57,047 bases of DNA from Rhodohalobacter sulfatireducens (GTDB taxonomy: Bacteria > Bacteroidota > Rhodothermia > Balneolales > Balneolaceae), in NCBI RefSeq assembly GCF_022012475.1, contig NZ_JAKLWS010000029.1, positions 1-57,047 of the forward strand, read 5' to 3'. Below are positions 48,773 to 57,047 of this stretch, one piece after another (the first letter of the stretch is position 1; each line of letters opens with the position of its first letter). Made by a program: the position numbers and the translations under genes. Under the pieces are notes generated by a model that was not told where the DNA came from, searched no databases, and saw nothing but the letters and a program-made list of their open reading frames with translations.

Positions 48773-49540
48773 ATGTACAGAGTTCAGTTAAAAAATTTCG
48801 AAGGCCCTCTAGATCTGCTCCTCTTTTTTATTAAAAGGGATGAGCTGAATATTTACGATATCCCCATCTCTCACATCACGCATGAATTTCTCGTGTATAT
48901 TCGGCTAATGGAAGAGCTTGACCTCGATGTTGCCAGTGAATTCATCTACATGGCAAGTATGCTGATGTCGATCAAAGCGCGAATGATGCTTCCGTTTGAA
49001 GGCGATGAAGAAGAGGAAATTGATGAAGATGACCCTCGTTACGAACTGGTTCAAAAACTCCTGGAGTATAAGCGCTACAAAGAGATGGCGGAGAAGATGA
49101 CCATCATCGATGAAGAGACCCAAAAGAAGTATTATCGCGGCTATCCTGAAGCGGATGAGGTTGAAAAACAGGCCACAGGCGAAGCGCTGAAAGACGTCAC
49201 ACTGTTTGACCTGATGGGGGCCTTCCGAAAAGTTCTGGCAGACATTAAAAGACAGAACACCTATCACAAAGTTGAAAGAGTCAGTTATACCGTTGAAGAA
49301 CAGACTGAATATATTTTGCAAACACTACAGGAAAAGGGACGGCGTTCTTTTCTTGATATCTGTAAAGAACTGAGAAACAAATCTGTTGTTGTGGTAACAT
49401 TCCTGGCAGTTCTCGAGATGTTAAAAGAACAACAAATAAACTTATTTATAGAAAACGAGGATCCTATCCAGTTTTATATCGACCTGAAACCGGTTGATGA
49501 AATTATTGGAACGGGCAGTAATGTTGAACAATCATCATGA
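48773..49540 (+). CDS. scpA: Segregation and condensation protein A
   Basis: 255 residues. The kleisin subunit that bridges SMC with ScpB for chromosome compaction. N-terminal YRVQLKNFEGPLDLLLFFIKRDELNIYDIPI and EFIYMASMLMSIKARMMLP are highly conserved; the C-terminal winged-helix (SFLDICKELRNKSVVVVTFLAVLEMLKEQQI) binds the SMC head. The gene overlaps the M28 peptidase by 4 bp (ATGA), so translation is probably coupled. scpB is not in the window. Confidence 0.95.
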   Translation: MYRVQLKNFEGPLDLLLFFIKRDELNIYDIPISHITHEFLVYIRLMEELDLDVASEFIYMASMLMSIKARMMLPFEGDEEEEIDEDDPRYELVQKLLEYKRYKEMAEKMTIIDEETQKKYYRGYPEADEVEKQATGEALKDVTLFDLMGAFRKVLADIKRQNTYHKVERVSYTVEEQTEYILQTLQEKGRRSFLDICKELRNKSVVVVTFLAVLEMLKEQQINLFIENEDPIQFYIDLKPVDEIIGTGSNVEQSS

Positions 49541-51222
49541 AGTATCTATTCCTATCGCTATCCATTCTCATAGCAATCCCAACAATTATAAACGCTCAGA
49601 GCTACTCAACAGATTCAGATGAGCTCTATCGGTATTCTGAAACAATCACGGTTGATTTTTTGAAAAAACACCTGAGCTTTTTGGCAAGCGACAGTCTTGG
49701 TGGACGCGATACCGGCACACCGGGCCTGAAGAAAGCAGCCGACTATCTTGTGGATTTTTATGAATCAACAGGTCTGCAGCCAAAAGGGGTAGACGGTACG
49801 TACTTTCAGCCATTCGGACTAAATGCCACTGTTACAGACAGCCTCGTTTATAAAACGTATCGAACAGAGGGTGCCGATACATTATTGGTAAACCACAGTA
49901 CGAAATCGACAGGCGGCAATACTGAATTTGTACGGGGCACCGGCGGAGCGGGCCCCATTGCAGGTGATATTGTATTTGGAGGATTCGGAGTGGATGATTC
50001 ATTAAACAGTGTTAGAAACCTGGAAGGAGATTCGATTGCAGGGAAATGGGTGTTAATCTTTGAGGAGATTCCTCATGTTGTTGATGATGATACTCTTGTG
50101 AACCCTAATTACGATTCCAGAGATCGTCTGATCACACTCATTCGGAATTATGGTGCCAGCGGTATTTTGTTGATTCCAGGTCAATCCCAAACCAAATTTC
50201 AGGATAGGGCAGAGATGAGTTCGCAAACCATCAGCGTACCCGGTAATCTTTCCCTCGCCTATCGGAGTAATGGCCGGTCCCCTTACACTCCGCCTTATGC
50301 CTATACATATATCAGCCCTGATTTTGCGGCCGAAATATTAGATGTCGACGGAGAGCAAGGGTTGGAAGAACTACGCCAAAATACCATTGAAAATTTACAG
50401 TATTTTCGATCTCAAAAAACCTCTTACTACCTGGACTACAATCCCTACGAAGGGCAAAAAATAGTTGAAACCAACAATGTGGTGGCTTATTTCGAGGGAG
50501 CTGATCCAATTCTGAAGGATGAGGTGGTTGTGATTATGGGGCATTACGATCACGTAGGAATGGGCTCACCCGACGAAACAGGTGATTACATTTATAACGG
50601 TGCCGACGACAACGGCAGCGGAACCGCAGGATTGATGGCGATTGCCAATGCATTTCAAAACGCTGCGGAAGATGGATTCAAACCGAAGCGGAGTATCCTC
50701 TTTTTGCATGTTTCGGCTGAGGAATCCGGGTTACTGGGGTCGCGATACTATTCCGATCATCCGACAATTCCGATTGAGCAGACGGTTGCCGCACTCAATA
50801 CAGATATGATCAGCCGAAGTGATCCAGATCATATTGAAGATGGAAATACTGATTACGTATACCTGATTGGAGGTGATCTGATTTCCTCTCAACTGGATAG
50901 CCTTGTGATGGATGCAAACAGCAACAGTGTGAACATGACATTAGACCGGGGATATAACGACCTGAATGATCCGACTCAAATATACCGGCGTAGTGATCAC
51001 TGGAACTTTGGCCGATTACGAGTCCCATTCGTCTTTTTCTTTACAGGTATTCACGAAGATTATCATCAGCCCGGCGATGAAATTCACGATGTTGATTTCG
51101 AAAAATACCCAAGGGTGGTTCGATTGATCTACAACTCAGCTGTAAACATTGCCAATTTCGAGGGCCGTCCCCAGGTGGATAACGAAGAGTTTATTGAAAT
51201 TACGAGCGAACAAGCAAGATAA
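49537..51222 (+). CDS. M28 family metallo-aminopeptidase, secreted
   Basis: 561 residues with a signal peptide (ends IINAQ). The metal site is shown by MGHYDHVG (about 335-340), NGADDNGSGTAGLM (bridging Asp) and HVSAEESGLLGSRYYSDHP (Glu base and ligand). A PA-like insert (about 150-290) precedes it. It removes N-terminal residues from peptides in the periplasm or medium. The 4-bp overlap with scpA is unusual given the different compartments. Confidence 0.9.
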   Translation: MKYLFLSLSILIAIPTIINAQSYSTDSDELYRYSETITVDFLKKHLSFLASDSLGGRDTGTPGLKKAADYLVDFYESTGLQPKGVDGTYFQPFGLNATVTDSLVYKTYRTEGADTLLVNHSTKSTGGNTEFVRGTGGAGPIAGDIVFGGFGVDDSLNSVRNLEGDSIAGKWVLIFEEIPHVVDDDTLVNPNYDSRDRLITLIRNYGASGILLIPGQSQTKFQDRAEMSSQTISVPGNLSLAYRSNGRSPYTPPYAYTYISPDFAAEILDVDGEQGLEELRQNTIENLQYFRSQKTSYYLDYNPYEGQKIVETNNVVAYFEGADPILKDEVVVIMGHYDHVGMGSPDETGDYIYNGADDNGSGTAGLMAIANAFQNAAEDGFKPKRSILFLHVSAEESGLLGSRYYSDHPTIPIEQTVAALNTDMISRSDPDHIEDGNTDYVYLIGGDLISSQLDSLVMDANSNSVNMTLDRGYNDLNDPTQIYRRSDHWNFGRLRVPFVFFFTGIHEDYHQPGDEIHDVDFEKYPRVVRLIYNSAVNIANFEGRPQVDNEEFIEITSEQAR

Positions 51223-52274: not shown

Positions 52275-53132
52275 TTGTGTAATCAATCTGATAAAGCAAT
52301 CCCGTTTCCGCTTGATGATGTAAAAATCAACCAGGTTGATCAGATCCCGGAAATTGAAGATCCTCTCTATTCCAACAACTGGATGAGCATCAGTCCAGTT
52401 GAATTTTCGATGACGGTGGAAAATGTCGGAAGTTTTTATGCCGGTGGTGGCAATCGAATTGAATATTCTCCAGACAAAAAAGCTGATGAAGCCTCTCTTG
52501 AGCTTTATATGAATGGATCAATCTACGGGGCAATACTTCATCAGCGGCAGATTCTACCACTGCATGGCAGTTCCTTTATTTTTAATCACTCCGGGGTGAT
52601 GTTTTGTGGAGATTCCGGGGCGGGTAAATCATCCCTGACCACCTCTTTTTGTTTAAACGGCGCCGGTTTTTTAACGGATGACGTTACTCCAATTCTGTTC
52701 AAAGAAGAGAAACCGCATATCTGGCCGAAGTCGGGAAAAATTAAATTGTGGGACGACAGCCTTCAGCAGCTTAGCAGAGAAAAACAGGATTTGACGAAAA
52801 TTCGTCCCGAGGATGAAAAATATTACCTGGAGATCGAATCAAACCGAGAAGAAGCATATCCTCTTCATACAATTCTTATTCTGCAGGTTACCGAAGATGA
52901 TGAGGTTTCTTTTGAGAAGGTTCAAAAAGTGGAAGCTTTCTCCTACCTGCACCAGGAAATTTACCGGAGGGAGTACCTTTTTGCCATGCCGGATGCCGAA
53001 TCAGACTATCTAAAGAAAATTAGTGCTATCTGTAATGAAATTTCAATTTTCCGGGTTAACAGGCCTATCTCGATTCAGATTGATGAAATGCGAAAAATTG
53101 TAAGTAAAAAAGTCATTACTGGTAATTTATGA
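52275..53132 (+). CDS. HPr kinase/phosphorylase-like protein (PadeK-type candidate)
   Basis: 285 residues from a TTG at 52275; the N-terminus is uncertain (an out-of-frame ATG at 52248 could suggest a shifted start). Walker A CGDSGAGKSS (111-120) is preceded by LPLHGSS and followed by GAGFLTDDVTPI with Asp135 and Asp136, as in HPr serine kinases. The HPr-binding regulatory N-domain of true HprK is replaced by a short beta-rich region. Relatives in lasso and other RiPP clusters phosphorylate the C-terminal Ser of precursor peptides. It overlaps the next gene by 4 bp, and a peptide ending in Ser follows. The peptide substrate is inferred. Confidence 0.82.
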   Translation: MCNQSDKAIPFPLDDVKINQVDQIPEIEDPLYSNNWMSISPVEFSMTVENVGSFYAGGGNRIEYSPDKKADEASLELYMNGSIYGAILHQRQILPLHGSSFIFNHSGVMFCGDSGAGKSSLTTSFCLNGAGFLTDDVTPILFKEEKPHIWPKSGKIKLWDDSLQQLSREKQDLTKIRPEDEKYYLEIESNREEAYPLHTILILQVTEDDEVSFEKVQKVEAFSYLHQEIYRREYLFAMPDAESDYLKKISAICNEISIFRVNRPISIQIDEMRKIVSKKVITGNL

Positions 53133-53902
53133 GCCGCTCGAATAAAAACTTAAAAGTCGTTGTTTTTACCGGCTCAAGTTCGCATTCCCACATGGTCGTC
53201 AATTATCTTAATGAAGTAGTTGACCTATTCGATATTCGAATAAAGAATGATTATCAAAACATGAACGAAAACCGTTACAAGAGGTATGGCTTTGTAAAAG
53301 CGGTGGGACAAAAACTGTTCATAAAATTTAAAAAATACTTAAAACGTCGTACTCAAGGCCGGATTGATGAAATTATCAACGAATTTAATCTAAATGTTTC
53401 GACTACGACTCCGGACTTGTGGATCTCGAATATTCACGATAAAAATCTTCCAAAAATCATCAATTTACAACAGCCCGATATAGTTGTTTTAAATTGTGTA
53501 AGTATTATACCACAATATCTGATGGATGCAGTAGATGCTCCTTTCATAAATATGCATGGAGGCATTACGCCATTATATCGAGGTGTTTTCGGTGGCTATT
53601 GGGCTTTGCGTGATGGAAACAAGCACCTTATTGGTTCAACCATTCATAAAGTTGATGCAGGTATTGACACAGGGGCTATTTTAAAACATATCTATTTTTC
53701 AGTAACTCCAGCTGATAATTTCTGTTCCTATAATGCGTTACATTTGGCTTACGCATTAAAAGGGTTGCAGGAAGTATTTGATTACTACACCGAACATCAA
53801 CAATTACCGGATCCTATTGAGACAGATATGCCCTCTAAACTCAGAAGCCATCCAACGATTTATGGGTATTTATTTTACAGGGTATTTAAAGGAATTAAGT
53901 GA
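53129..53902 (+). CDS. Formyltransferase-family protein
   Basis: 257 residues; it starts within the end of the kinase gene (ATGA overlap). The formyl-transferase fold has the catalytic set Asn141 and His143 (FINMHGGITPLYRG) and Asp180 (HKVDAGIDTGAIL). An unusually basic N-terminal insert (KKYLKRRTQGR) precedes it. Relatives transfer formyl from N10-formyl-tetrahydrofolate to tRNA, nucleotides or amino sugars. It lacks the C-terminal tRNA domain of Fmt, so it is not the initiator enzyme. Its tight coupling to the kinase suggests tailoring of a peptide or small molecule. Confidence 0.8.
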   Translation: MSRSNKNLKVVVFTGSSSHSHMVVNYLNEVVDLFDIRIKNDYQNMNENRYKRYGFVKAVGQKLFIKFKKYLKRRTQGRIDEIINEFNLNVSTTTPDLWISNIHDKNLPKIINLQQPDIVVLNCVSIIPQYLMDAVDAPFINMHGGITPLYRGVFGGYWALRDGNKHLIGSTIHKVDAGIDTGAILKHIYFSVTPADNFCSYNALHLAYALKGLQEVFDYYTEHQQLPDPIETDMPSKLRSHPTIYGYLFYRVFKGIK

Positions 53903-53992
53903 GATAGGACGATAATGGACTCCTATATTTTTGGTGAGAATCCTGATTTTATATATTTTAATCGATAGTCATTAAAATAAAGATCTCTCAAA

Positions 53993-54109
53993 ATGAAAAA
54001 TCAAGAAAAAAATAAGCCCGTCTGGAAAAAACCAACAATTACTACTTTATCTATCAAAAGCGGTACGGAGCAGATTAAACTGTTCAAAAGTCACGTATCG
54101 AAAAGCTAA
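53993..54109 (+). CDS. Candidate RiPP precursor peptide A
   Basis: 38 residues, ATG at 53993, TAA at 54107-54109, 90 bp after the formyltransferase gene. It has a leader-like first part with W11-x2-P14-x-I16, then TLSIKSGTEQ (18-27), then a basic tail IKLFKSHVSKS ending in Ser. Positions 14-27 match peptide B at 12 of 14 positions, while the tails differ completely. That conserved-leader, variable-core pattern is typical of ribosomal peptide natural products, and W-x-x-P-x-I resembles the Y-x-x-P-x-L lasso leader. No Asp/Glu lies where a lasso ring would close. Too short for routine gene calling. Confidence 0.65.
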   Translation: MKNQEKNKPVWKKPTITTLSIKSGTEQIKLFKSHVSKS

Positions 54110-54213
54110 AGTCTTTTCATTGATATATACTGAGTTACAGTCAGAAAAATGTTCTGATGCTGGATACATATGATCAATCCGTAAAGCCTAACCCAGCAAA
54201 ATTAAAATAGGAT

Positions 54214-55464
54214 TTACTCCTCCAATTGAGACCAATCCGGGAAATAGGATGAACTTTCGTTGTCAGCCGTAATATTTCTCAAACCGGATCCATCTGCATT
54301 GATTACGAACACGTCATAAAAATTCAGATCTTCATCCCTGTTTGAATCAAATACAAGCCGACTGCCATCGGGAGACCAAGCCGGGAAGCGGTGTGTAACC
54401 TGGTTATCTTTTAAGTCAGTAAGACAATTCGGGTTTGAACCATCTGCATCAGCCACACAAATCTCCCAGGATATTTCGGATTCAAGGTTACTGCGAAATG
54501 CAATTTTACTGCCATCCGGCGACCACGATGGATTCATAAAAGAAACTTCATCATCCTGAAGCAACACCGACCGTCCTGTTCCATCTATACCTATCGTACT
54601 GATATATCCTGGAATTCCGGTCTCAAAAACATGAAATGCTATTGTATTGCCATTCGGCGACCAATCCGGCCACCACTCACCTGTTGGAGTATTGGTGACA
54701 TTGGTTTTTCCGCTTCCGTCCGCATTCATGATAAAAATATCTCCCTCACCCCCTTGAACATATGAATGATAGGCAATTTGAGATCCATCGGGTGACCAAC
54801 TGGGAAACTCATGAAACCGCTGGGCATCGTTTGTTAAATTCTCGAGGTTTTCTCCGTCTGCATTTACCACCCAAATTTGTGATGTTGTAAACCCACCTCC
54901 TTCGGAAACAAACAGAATTTTTGTGCCATCCGGGGAGATCGCAATTTTCCAGTAATCGCCTACCCCAAAATCTGTTATCTGGGTTATGTTCTCTCCATCC
55001 GGATCCGATTTATAAAGGTTTGCTGCTCCGTTCTCAAACCTGGTGAATACGATTTTATTCCTGAGAATACCAATGCAGTTAAGTTCAAAAGTAACACTCA
55101 GCGTTTCACTTCCGGTAATTTCAACAGATTGCGGATTCTCGCTGCTCATTGTACAGTGATCTGCGATATCTGAAAGCTCAACACTATACATTCCCGGCTC
55201 CAGATTATTGAACGTTCCCGTGTCATTGGCGTCCACATTTTTTGCACCGTTGCCCTGCACAGTCACCCTAAATGCAGGTGGATTGTCGTCTCCCCCGGTG
55301 GTTACAATTTGTACTTCCACCGAGCCCAAATCCGGGTCAGCATTCGTTGAACTATCACCGCATGAAATCATTAACCCGGCCGGAATCAATATCAATAACG
55401 ATATTGTAAAATAGTGTTGGATTCTTAGTCTCACACTTGTGCGGAACTTCATTCGATTCATCAT
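54214..55464 (-). CDS. PD40/TolB-type beta-propeller lipoprotein
   Basis: 416 residues. The leader ends in an ISC lipobox (Cys35 from the first Met; starts at 55461 or 55452 would be equally good). A small carboxypeptidase-regulatory-like domain occupies about 46-130. Then at least five WSPDGS-type PD40 repeats follow: ISPDGTKILFVSE, WSPDGSQIAYHS, WSPNGNTIAFHV, WSPDGSKIAFRS and WSPDGSRLVFDS, making a six-bladed propeller. It is surface or periplasmic, with unknown function. It lies between the two peptide genes and may be unrelated to them. Confidence 0.85.
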   Translation of the reverse strand: MMNRMKFRTSVRLRIQHYFTISLLILIPAGLMISCGDSSTNADPDLGSVEVQIVTTGGDDNPPAFRVTVQGNGAKNVDANDTGTFNNLEPGMYSVELSDIADHCTMSSENPQSVEITGSETLSVTFELNCIGILRNKIVFTRFENGAANLYKSDPDGENITQITDFGVGDYWKIAISPDGTKILFVSEGGGFTTSQIWVVNADGENLENLTNDAQRFHEFPSWSPDGSQIAYHSYVQGGEGDIFIMNADGSGKTNVTNTPTGEWWPDWSPNGNTIAFHVFETGIPGYISTIGIDGTGRSVLLQDDEVSFMNPSWSPDGSKIAFRSNLESEISWEICVADADGSNPNCLTDLKDNQVTHRFPAWSPDGSRLVFDSNRDEDLNFYDVFVINADGSGLRNITADNESSSYFPDWSQLEE

Positions 55465-55674
55465 AAAGAGTGTATTTGTTTGATATCCTGGTAAGAATTT
55501 TTGAGTGTCTCTGTTAATAGATGCAACAACAGATCAGCAATCGGCTCATCTTTCTTAAATTAATTCAGACTTGAAACGGGTTGGTCAAACATAGTCTCAA
55601 CGAACCTTTGTTACTCATAGGGGTAATCAGAAACTTCACAATACTTCCTGAGGCGAGTTTGCCTTAATGACCGT

Positions 55675-56115
55675 TTATTGATTTACTTTTACTTCCAGGC
55701 TGGTATAATTATTTTTCGATTCTTCCAGTTGATTCATGAAAAAATCGACGGCTTCATTTTTCTCTGATTCATTGACACCGAGATAGTATCGGATAGAGCC
55801 GATGCGCACTTGATATTTAAGTTGCCCATCTTCCTTGGCAAGCTCGTCTGGCGTTCTCACTACAGTGTTTCCCCTTGTTCCATCTTCACGAATAACGGTT
55901 AATTCATAAGAAGAAGCATCGGATTGTGGACTGAAATATGCCCTGAAGCCTCCATTGGTTACATTATACGTTCCGTCTGCATTCTCAACAACCGGTACGA
56001 ACTTTTCAAAGCCGACTTCAAACAGTTTATTGTCTCCTGAACCGGAATCACTGGGGCACCCGGGTAAGAAGATCAATAAAAAAATGGAGAGGAATAACTT
56101 GGATACTACTTTCAT
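55675..56115 (-). CDS. Hypothetical lipoprotein
   Basis: 146 residues with a lipobox (LPGCPS, Cys20). The mature part is beta-rich (FVPVVENADGTYNVTNGGFRAYF, YELTVIREDGTRGNTVV) followed by a helical end. No family recognised. A 210-bp non-coding space follows it and a 330-bp space (56116-56445) precedes it. The latter holds only weak repeat-like sequence, with a GACGCTTGCACCC motif near 56351 that recalls the dispersed palindromes. Confidence 0.6.
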   Translation of the reverse strand: MKVVSKLFLSIFLLIFLPGCPSDSGSGDNKLFEVGFEKFVPVVENADGTYNVTNGGFRAYFSPQSDASSYELTVIREDGTRGNTVVRTPDELAKEDGQLKYQVRIGSIRYYLGVNESEKNEAVDFFMNQLEESKNNYTSLEVKVNQ

Positions 56116-56445
56116 AAGAATCTGATACTTTTTATTAGACGTTGATGATTTTTTCCCGGCTGTGCTGCCAGTCTCTTATTCCATCATGCAACATCTGTCT
56201 TCAGAAAAGCTCAGCTCTTTTTAAAAATATTTATCTCTCTCTTGATGTAAGTAGGTGATTCTCTTGTTTCTTTTTTAGAATTACCGCCTGCATTCGGTGG
56301 ATTCAGCGGTTCACCATTTTGCTTCGTCTATCGGCTTAGGGTACAAACGAGACGCTTGCACCCTCCAAATTGAAGGAAGGAAACGCAGGATGCTTCTTAT
56401 CCCCATTCAAATACTTTATACATGGCTGAATTTAACTCAGCTCTA

Positions 56446-56556
56446 TTAAGATATATCTGCTGCCTCAGGTACCTCTTGCTCTGTACCACTCTTGATTGAA
56501 AGAGTTGAAATTTTGGGTGTTATCCAAGGTTTGATTGATTGATTTTTCTCTTCCAT
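56446..56556 (-). CDS. Candidate RiPP precursor peptide B
   Basis: 36 residues on the minus strand, ATG at 56556-56554, TAA at 56448-56446. It has W11-x2-P14-x-I16 and TLSIKSGTEQ at 18-27, exactly the register of peptide A, followed by a different, acidic tail EVPEAADIS that also ends in Ser. Identity of the middle block with opposite strand and diverged tails shows a peptide family, not chance. It has an AT-rich promoter-like upstream region with a palindrome at 56601-56617. No modification enzyme lies beside it within the window. Confidence 0.65.
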   Translation of the reverse strand: MEEKNQSIKPWITPKISTLSIKSGTEQEVPEAADIS

Positions 56557-56710: not shown

Positions 56711-56812
56711 ATGGTCAAAAAACTGTGGTATTTCATGAGGCCTGCTTGTCAAAATTCGGCGGATCTTTCGGGCCGGTTTGGTTTGTGTCCCGGCTGATGG
56801 ACAGGGTTTTAT

Positions 56813-56908
56813 AGACATTGTATTTTTTGGTGACATCGCGGAATTTTTTTCTTCACGGACAAATCAACCATCTCTGTACTGATTAGCGGTGAGAAAAATA
56901 CAATGTCT
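56813..56908. repeat. Perfect 15-bp inverted repeat
   Basis: AGACATTGTATTTTT (56813-56827) and AAAAATACAATGTCT (56894-56908) are exact complements 66 bp apart, like the ends of a small mobile or repeat element. No coding sequence is apparent between 56711 and the window end. Confidence 0.6.
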
Positions 56909-56954
56909 TGCGAGACCAAGAAATGACCTGACAGCCTAACAAAGGATGTTGGTT

Positions 56955-57009
56955 CCTGTCAGCGTCTTCATGAAAGTCCACGCTGTCAGGACCTGCGGAC
57001 GCTGACAGG
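56955..57009. repeat. CCTGTCAGCGTC inverted repeat
   Basis: CCTGTCAGCGTC (56955-56966) and GACGCTGACAGG (56998-57009) are exact complements, with a third related copy CGCTGTCAGG at 56981-56990 in the loop and GACCTGACAGC at 56926-56936 just before. A repeat element at the right edge of the window. Confidence 0.6.
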
Positions 57010-57047
57010 TGGCCTTAGAAAGAAGTTCATTGCCGGCACGAAAAATA

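Follow-up and report, generated by a model that had tools for sequence, protein, structure and literature searches.

Short precursor peptides accompanied by an HprK-like kinase and mostly encoded behind type IX secretion cargo genes in Rhodohalobacter sulfatireducens and its relatives: a probable linear phosphopeptide system

A contig of 57,047 bases from Rhodohalobacter sulfatireducens (contig C60 of genome G000) constitutes, in its entirety, the window; it carries two very short peptide genes close to a gene for an HprK-like kinase, and these peptides, their relatives and the enzymes that might process them are the subject of this study (G-, C- and L-numbers designate genomes, contigs and loci, respectively). 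The open reading frame (ORF) of the kinase (52275-53132, plus strand) begins with an uncertain TTG start and encodes H97, GDSGAGKS at residues 112-119 and DD at 135-136. It overlaps by 4 bases with a formyltransferase-like ORF (53129-53902, plus strand) with intact NMHGG...RG and DAGIDTG motifs, which is followed by the gene for peptide 1 (38 aa; 53993-54109, plus strand). Peptide 2, with 36 aa counted from the ATG, is encoded on the minus strand (56446-56556). Both peptides have W11, P14, I16, TLSIKSGTEQ at positions 18-27 and a terminal Ser in common; a gapped alignment of the family places their N-termini differently and leaves the invariant residues unchanged. Within TLSIKSGTEQ, 7 of the 10 codons differ between the two genes, every change being synonymous. 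The presumed core of peptide 1 is QIKLFKSHVSKS, which contains neither Asp nor Glu, and that of peptide 2 is QEVPEAADIS; a Pro-Pro pair (PP) is present in neither. A sequence-only reading of the window had described the overlapping kinase and formyltransferase genes as well as the two sister peptides with their shared motif, and these are real, coordinates and residues being confirmed. It had overlooked a degenerate third copy of the peptide (approximately 56733-56830, 5′ limit approximate, minus strand), which ends with ...KTLSISRDTNQTGPKDPPNFDKQAS directly before the stop and has lost the leader W and P, and also the end of the contig 491 bases past peptide 2.

To define the peptide family, a two-sequence profile was run against 98 genomes and a 19-sequence profile against 146 genomes. 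The latter yielded 40 matches at E ≤ 1e-4 in 11 of the 28 same-genus (Balneolaceae) genomes, both window peptides included, and one further match in G083, a member of another family. The genes listed (n = 40) comprise 39 of the genus matches and the one from G083, since a frameshifted copy in G012 (C5:36602), located behind a gene of the type IX secretion system (T9SS), was left out. Three of the 40 repeat an identical peptide, so that 37 distinct peptides remain; two G014 genes at contig ends are identical in DNA as well and may represent a single gene. T-x-Q and the final Ser were found in all 40 genes, and the leader W..P in all 38 genes that hold this region, followed by I, L or V in 37 of them. 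The presumed cores comprise 9-17 residues, and PP is present in 34 of the 37 distinct tails. Synonymous codons vary widely among 38 genes (4/4 for P, 4/4 for T, 2/2 for Q and 5/6 for the last Ser), and all three stop codons occur. Invariant W, P, T-x-Q and Ser residues encoded by varied synonymous codons demonstrate that selection acts on the protein. The earlier proposal of a family resembling precursors of ribosomally synthesized and posttranslationally modified peptides (RiPPs) that goes with an HprK-type kinase is borne out by the 40 genus matches and by a kinase in 10 of the 11 peptide-bearing genomes; homologous short ORFs do exist in related genomes, and their starts and stops are conserved. 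That chance or decaying ORFs without function are at issue appears extremely improbable. The ORFs are indeed very short and some copies are degenerate (the third copy in the window, G012 C5:36602), but residues that stay invariant while their codons change synonymously across 38 genes, the co-occurrence with processing genes and the fixed gene position described below argue against this explanation.

No Pfam or NCBIfam family clearly takes the peptides (30 tested). The paeninodin model NF033524 is matched weakly by 6 of the 30 at E ≤ 1 (best E 0.0035), and by neither window peptide at this threshold. Weak matches to PqqA (2/30 in Pfam and 1/30 in NCBIfam, E 0.0066 and 0.051) we take as a common leader that might be bound by a RiPP recognition element (RRE). 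In a phylum-wide search with the 30 peptides against 394 genomes drawn evenly, full-length members were found in the genus only; matches in G289, G327, G355 and G464 proved to be lasso-type precursors with an Asn synthase gene nearby (genes of G327 named by eye), and those in G006, G127, G210 and G395 look like chance. Among the matches of the two-sequence profile, G005:C4:217306, G011:C5, G018:C30 and G020:C17 were dropped as they contain no W..P ORF, and weak matches in other genera together with G016:C291 were dropped before counting and not read out. Matches of the 19-sequence profile with E > 1e-3 were likewise dropped, including three leader-only mini-ORFs and a lasso precursor of G005, and so were the degenerate window copy (E 8.9e-4) and a match in G071 (E 1.6e-4). 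The related G071 peptide, from another family (L159:1543-1641), has Thr as its last residue in place of Ser, and its gene follows a T9SS gene. The leader-only mini-ORFs (WHKPEIISLD-stop and similar) are located between kinase and RRE in four genomes (L089:5969-6034, L090:11829-11900, L091, L092); two have a GTG start, the one in G004 is out of frame, and the aligned stretch looks better conserved than most flanks. They possibly represent an RRE-stabilising or decoy leader, or a decaying precursor.

The position of the peptide genes in the genome is highly regular, a feature not visible from the window alone and missed by the sequence-only reading. Upstream mechanical ORFs were scanned for the T9SS sorting motif; nine of the 40 genes, preceded by less than 500 bases of sequence, were excluded from the test. 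Of the 31 testable peptide genes, 29 are located downstream and on the same strand of an ORF with this motif (28/30 in the genus and the one in G083), at a distance of 12-383 bp (median 92). For at least 19 of the 29 upstream ORFs, the assignment is also supported by a profile match (compiled by hand), and all seven upstream proteins scanned as well as the partner in L045 carry Por_Secre_tail or TIGR04183, as do T9SS type A cargo proteins. The partners are usually very large: 21 of the 29 comprise at least 1000 aa, and of the other eight, five run into the end of the available sequence and three, in G005, lie in broken frames. As the genus genomes contain 4-32 T9SS tail matches each, chance is negligible as a cause of this pairing (binomial 2e-47 at an assumed 2% per gene). 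Several paired cargos (L045, L158, L034, L048) contain PARCEL/DUF285 repeats, families named after surface proteins of Listeria and Mycoplasma.

The kinase matches Pfam Hpr_kinase_C with an E value of 7.5e-4 and 19.5 bits, which is under the cut-off of 33.3, and a sequence search of the PDB yielded weak HprK matches only (best E 0.0038). An AlphaFold2 model with a mean predicted local distance difference test score (pLDDT) of 87.7 was compared by Foldseek, with PEPCK chains on top followed by HprK/P chains (3tqf, 1kkl), and the model thus supports an HprK/PEPCK fold. The motif H...GxxGxGKS...DD is invariant in 10 of 10 aligned kinases and corresponds to the motif H-GxxGxGKS-DD given for lasso kinases (PMC10368454). 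Full-length orthologues are present in G002, G004, G005, G008, G012, G014, G019, G020 and G025, and a truncated one in G016. The genus orthologues adjoin ScpA and/or M28 genes; in the window, these synteny anchors are a ScpA-like gene (48773-49540) and an M28 peptidase-like gene (49537-51222), both on the plus strand and named by eye. In G002, G004, G008, G014 and G025, a PqqD gene comes after the kinase.

Neither a cyclase nor a leader peptidase had been recognised in the window by the sequence-only reading, in agreement with the ORFs seen; it had considered that the machinery might act in trans, which is now probable. Contig C50 of the same genome carries one lasso peptidase B2 (NF033537, 71.6 bits against a cut-off of 33) with a PqqD-like gene next to it, whose best match is NF033536 (71.5 bits, under the cut-off of 80), and neither a cyclase nor a W..P precursor was seen beside this pair. 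Pairs of B2 and PqqD likewise occur in G012, G017 and G020. Across the 28 genomes, the presence of these genes follows that of the peptides. A full-length kinase was detected in 10 of 11 peptide-bearing genomes and in 0 of 17 others (Fisher 8e-7, or 9e-6 if the truncated G016 kinase is counted as present; distant kinases of G011, G016 and G019, 24-26% identical, are ignored). For PqqD at E < 1e-12 the numbers are 11/11 and 3/17 (Fisher 3e-5), and for B2 over the cut-off 9/11 and 2/17 (Fisher 4e-4). In genomes at least 90% complete, the respective values are 1e-4, 1e-4 and 5e-3. An Asn synthase-like cyclase was found beside B2 only in G005, G016 and G019, which corresponds to 2 of the 11 peptide-bearing genomes, as G016 is without peptide; in the other nine, no cyclase was found beside B2.

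The leader, the kinase, the RRE and B2 are all of lasso type, and lasso-type clusters with a cyclase gene exist in G005, G016 and G019. The peptides might therefore be true lasso peptides, a short paeninodin variant whose ring is closed in trans by a cyclase encoded elsewhere, for instance a large AsnB-type enzyme. With Gln as residue 1, an acidic residue is present at positions 7-9 in 26 of the 37 cores, which would fit such ring closure. However, 11 of the 37 lack an acceptor at 7-9, three of them, among which is peptide 1 of the window, without any Asp or Glu, and cores of 9-17 residues leave little tail for threading. Residue 1 of lasso cores is typically small (Gly, Ala, Ser or Cys), whereas here it would be Gln. 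Furthermore, no large AsnB (E < 1e-50) was detected in G002, G004, G008, G014 and G025, which bear peptides and have no lasso-type cyclase; G008 has one additional weak AsnB match of 26 bits. The earlier reading had left room for a pathway other than lasso, and this can be refined: since a cyclase lies beside B2 in only 2 of 11 genomes, residue 1 is Gln and three cores are devoid of Asp and Glu, the system is probably not a lasso pathway, and ring closure in trans is considered unlikely. Paeninodin-like lasso precursors carry Thr at leader position -2, a place that the invariant Thr would take here if the leader ended right before Gln. The position of the cut relative to the Thr is not certain, as T-x is followed by Phe or Met rather than Gly in the three genus clusters of lasso type. 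Two of these clusters (L103 and L104, in G016 and G019) have their own HprK-like kinase, two family 2 glycosyltransferases and a precursor with T-R-M-G; the cyclase of the G005 cluster (L100:9657-11597) reads as two ORFs and may be interrupted or wrongly sequenced.

The wider distribution of the kinase suggests where this machinery came from. The single kinase used as a query gave no match in the genome contigs, and the kinase alignment as query retrieved 23 loci, the subfamily occurring also in Algibacter mikhailovii, Runella, Gillisia, Bacteroidales and other records. In most of the 14 loci read, an Asn synthetase-like gene is found together with the kinase, and L168, L170, L172, L173, L174 and L177 contain kinase, B2, PqqD, cyclase and precursor (some genes named by eye). 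Inspection of the kinase surroundings in Pararhodonellum (L175) revealed no lasso gene, and some other contigs end too early. In all nine precursors read from these lasso clusters, T-x is followed by G, S, A or T as residue 1, with D or E at 8-9 and a final Ser. In a kinase tree of 28 rows, long rows retained, the genus kinases form one group beside the kinases of lasso clusters (support 84/99, fork not starred). Judging from this grouping, the machinery of the genus most likely descends from lasso clusters, with subsequent loss of the cyclase in most species and an increase in the number of short precursors; that it went in this direction is an assumption on our part. The lasso clusters of two Bacteroidales records are followed by a gene for a very large DUF2341 protein, which in one case has a T9SS tail below threshold (17.8 of 27 bits) and in the other a SprB repeat, the latter protein being cut off. 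The B2 locus of G060, from another family, includes a T9SS protein as well; a gene of this genome regarded by eye as a kinase (L099:9981-11219) finds nothing in Pfam and is not claimed as such.

A family with invariant residues is thus found together with kinase and RRE, mostly without a cyclase beside B2, and its genes follow T9SS cargo genes. We consider with moderate confidence that this represents a split, mostly cyclase-less, paeninodin-derived RiPP system for linear phosphopeptides rather than a lasso pathway, and that it is tied to the T9SS cargo genes. Many tiny precursor genes would be dispersed genome-wide, almost every one of them immediately following a gene whose product is a surface protein secreted by the T9SS and in most cases very large. 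By homology, the PqqD-like RRE is expected to bind the W-x2-P-x-I leader; the HprK-like kinase would phosphorylate the invariant C-terminal Ser, its likely target. B2 would then cut after T-x, the exact cut being uncertain, which would release a short linear peptide with Gln at the start and a (poly)phospho-Ser at the end. In most species, the system would form no macrolactam, having retained no lasso cyclase. At the cell surface, each peptide might act jointly with its cargo protein.

Several observations weigh against this proposal. Peptide 1 of the window is not behind a T9SS gene, the peptide of L045 precedes one, and peptide 2 was not part of the T9SS test as the contig ends; moreover, both window tails are without PP, unlike 34 of the 37. 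G017 has a peptide and no kinase was found in it, no B2 was found in the draft genomes of G002 and G014, and G011, G013 and G016 have a strong PqqD without peptides. A large AsnB elsewhere in G000 and some other genomes is a possible cyclase, and with 26 of the 37 cores acidic at 7-9 a small macrolactam is possible for those. Finally, the Fisher values overstate significance, given the relatedness of the genomes and a PqqD threshold chosen with the list already in view.

The closest kin described for the system are the paeninodin-like lasso peptides and the linear polyphosphorylated peptides (LPPs). With the former (PadeK, ThcoK, SyanK, PsmK) it shares a leader of the type [Y/W]xxPx[L/I], with W in the genus, an HprK-like kinase with H-GxxGxGKS-DD, a discrete PqqD-like RRE, B2 and a C-terminal Ser. 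In contrast to them, the genus system mostly lacks a cyclase beside B2, has Gln instead of a small residue at presumed position 1 and a short, mostly Pro-rich core, and its precursors are scattered, mostly behind T9SS cargo, with the machinery in trans. LPPs, described in Bacillota by Popov et al. 2026 (PMC13381572), likewise combine an HprK-like kinase and a discrete RRE without a cyclase and show close kinship to lasso clusters; a linear phosphorylated product is known for them and would be expected for the genus system. LPPs are, however, clustered, with an SpI-like peptidase, a YxxP leader and phosphorylation of Ser3, whereas the genus system has a W leader, a B2-type peptidase, a C-terminal Ser, no cluster and the linkage to T9SS. 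The LPP leader YxxPxVLxHQxIxFETxxS is not matched by the genus peptides, which have W for Y and neither HQ nor FET, and unlike in LPPs, Ser at core position 3 (counted from Gln) occurs in 0 of 37 distinct cores, the conserved Ser being the last residue. The Bsf lasso cluster (Duan et al. 2023, PMC10368454) also encodes an HprK-like kinase, the activity of which is raised by the RRE, and has separate B1 and B2; it differs by phosphorylating Ser3 of a lasso precursor and by being a single cluster with cyclase, transporter and nucleotidyltransferase.

Popov et al. state that the roles of paeninodins and LPPs are unknown (PMC13381572). With 29 of 31 testable precursor genes behind T9SS cargo genes, the genus offers a direct testable setting for the role of phosphorylated RiPPs. 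The system would show how a lasso pathway can turn linear and trans-acting, and the handling of T9SS cargo may prove to involve a partner not recognised before. Some little-studied bacteria appear to make many very short kinase-tagged peptides, mostly encoded behind genes of large secreted surface proteins. As to the link of paeninodin-related peptides to type IX secretion, a literature search, with most subscription journals and bioRxiv preprints outside its scope, retrieved no paper joining lasso peptides with T9SS or type IX secretion, or RiPPs and precursor peptides with type IX secretion.

The pairing with T9SS cargo (29/31) would also fit a surface linker, in which the peptide is coupled via its phosphorylated Ser to the cargo or to a surface polysaccharide and serves as an anchor. 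NTP_transf_5 nucleotidyltransferases, a known partner of such kinases and the family to which PsmN of the pseudomycoidin pathway presumably belongs, are encoded near the cyclase-less B2 and PqqD pairs of G017 and G020 (L096:1398-2414, L097:11020-11289), the two genomes searched for them. Pseudomycoidin is phosphorylated at the C-terminal Ser, and PsmN adds hexoses to the phospho-Ser (PMC9266682). In P. gingivalis, a sugar bearing a seryl group serves to anchor the cargo (PMC13086638), and clusters for paeninodins and LPPs are located in capsule loci (PMC13381572). Nevertheless, only 2 of 11 genomes showed the nucleotidyltransferase, with no genome-wide search made, and the seryl-sugar parallel may be coincidence, so that a linker function is regarded as a rather doubtful option. 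Going further, one might envisage a RiPP system dedicated to T9SS, in which every large cargo comes with a separate peptide that has been freed of its leader and carries a terminal (poly)phosphate; bound to the cargo or to the surface glycan holding it, this peptide would anchor or label the cargo on the outer membrane. Lasso machinery, for the most part without its cyclase, would have been recruited in trans for this purpose; we put this forward only as a tentative speculation. Alternatively, the processed peptides could be signals, that is, pheromones sensed by an adjoining regulator which controls expression of the cargo. Genes resembling hybrid histidine kinases or extracytoplasmic function (ECF) sigma factors and Ser-Thr kinases do lie near several pairs (three scanned), but no regulator was seen within a few kb of some others, such as L042, L044 and L146, a statement that rests on no systematic count and does not extend to exporters and receptors, and a signalling role is judged unlikely.

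The formyltransferase clearly belongs to its family (PF00551, 55.6 bits at a cut-off of 26.1), and its gene overlaps that of the kinase and precedes peptide 1; the sequence-only reading had suggested tailoring by the kinase and perhaps formylation of the peptide. Formyltransferases also adjoin lasso clusters with an HprK-like kinase in two other Bacteroidota, G327 and G464 (the kinase match in G464 being weaker). However, their alignment with the window enzyme is confined to the active-site region (51-66 residues, 33-35% identity), and in none of the other 10 genus genomes with a match to the kinase was an orthologue found next to it. The enzyme, present at the kinase locus in this genome only, was consequently rejected as a core part of the module; formylation of the peptides seems quite improbable, and we treat the gene as a presumed accessory of this one genome. 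In the lasso clusters L199 and L202, likewise of other Bacteroidota, a formyltransferase is accompanied by three neighbours of the same kind, the two tested of which are phage tail collar proteins; L199 also includes a sulfotransferase.

Two lipoprotein genes are located between the window peptides, both on the minus strand. The larger one encodes a PD40 beta-propeller lipoprotein (54214-55464), a neighbour rather than known machinery, whose gene accompanies a peptide gene in G005 and G012 too, with the order preserved; its weak match to the lasso isopeptidase model (63.8 bits versus 400) is probably caused by the beta-propeller only. The other, a small GCPSDSG lipoprotein gene (55675-56115), lies directly downstream of peptide 2, and this arrangement is repeated in G005 and G012. 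The last 488 bases of the contig, used as a query for an upstream partner of peptide 2, yielded besides the window itself only short repeat matches. A dispersed repeat at 56921-57010 shows 85% identity over 90 bases to a site on C45, with shorter matches elsewhere. The peptide copies of G005 and G012 that have the same two lipoprotein neighbours as peptide 2 follow T9SS genes, and we predict that a T9SS partner would likewise be located upstream of peptide 2, past the end of the contig.

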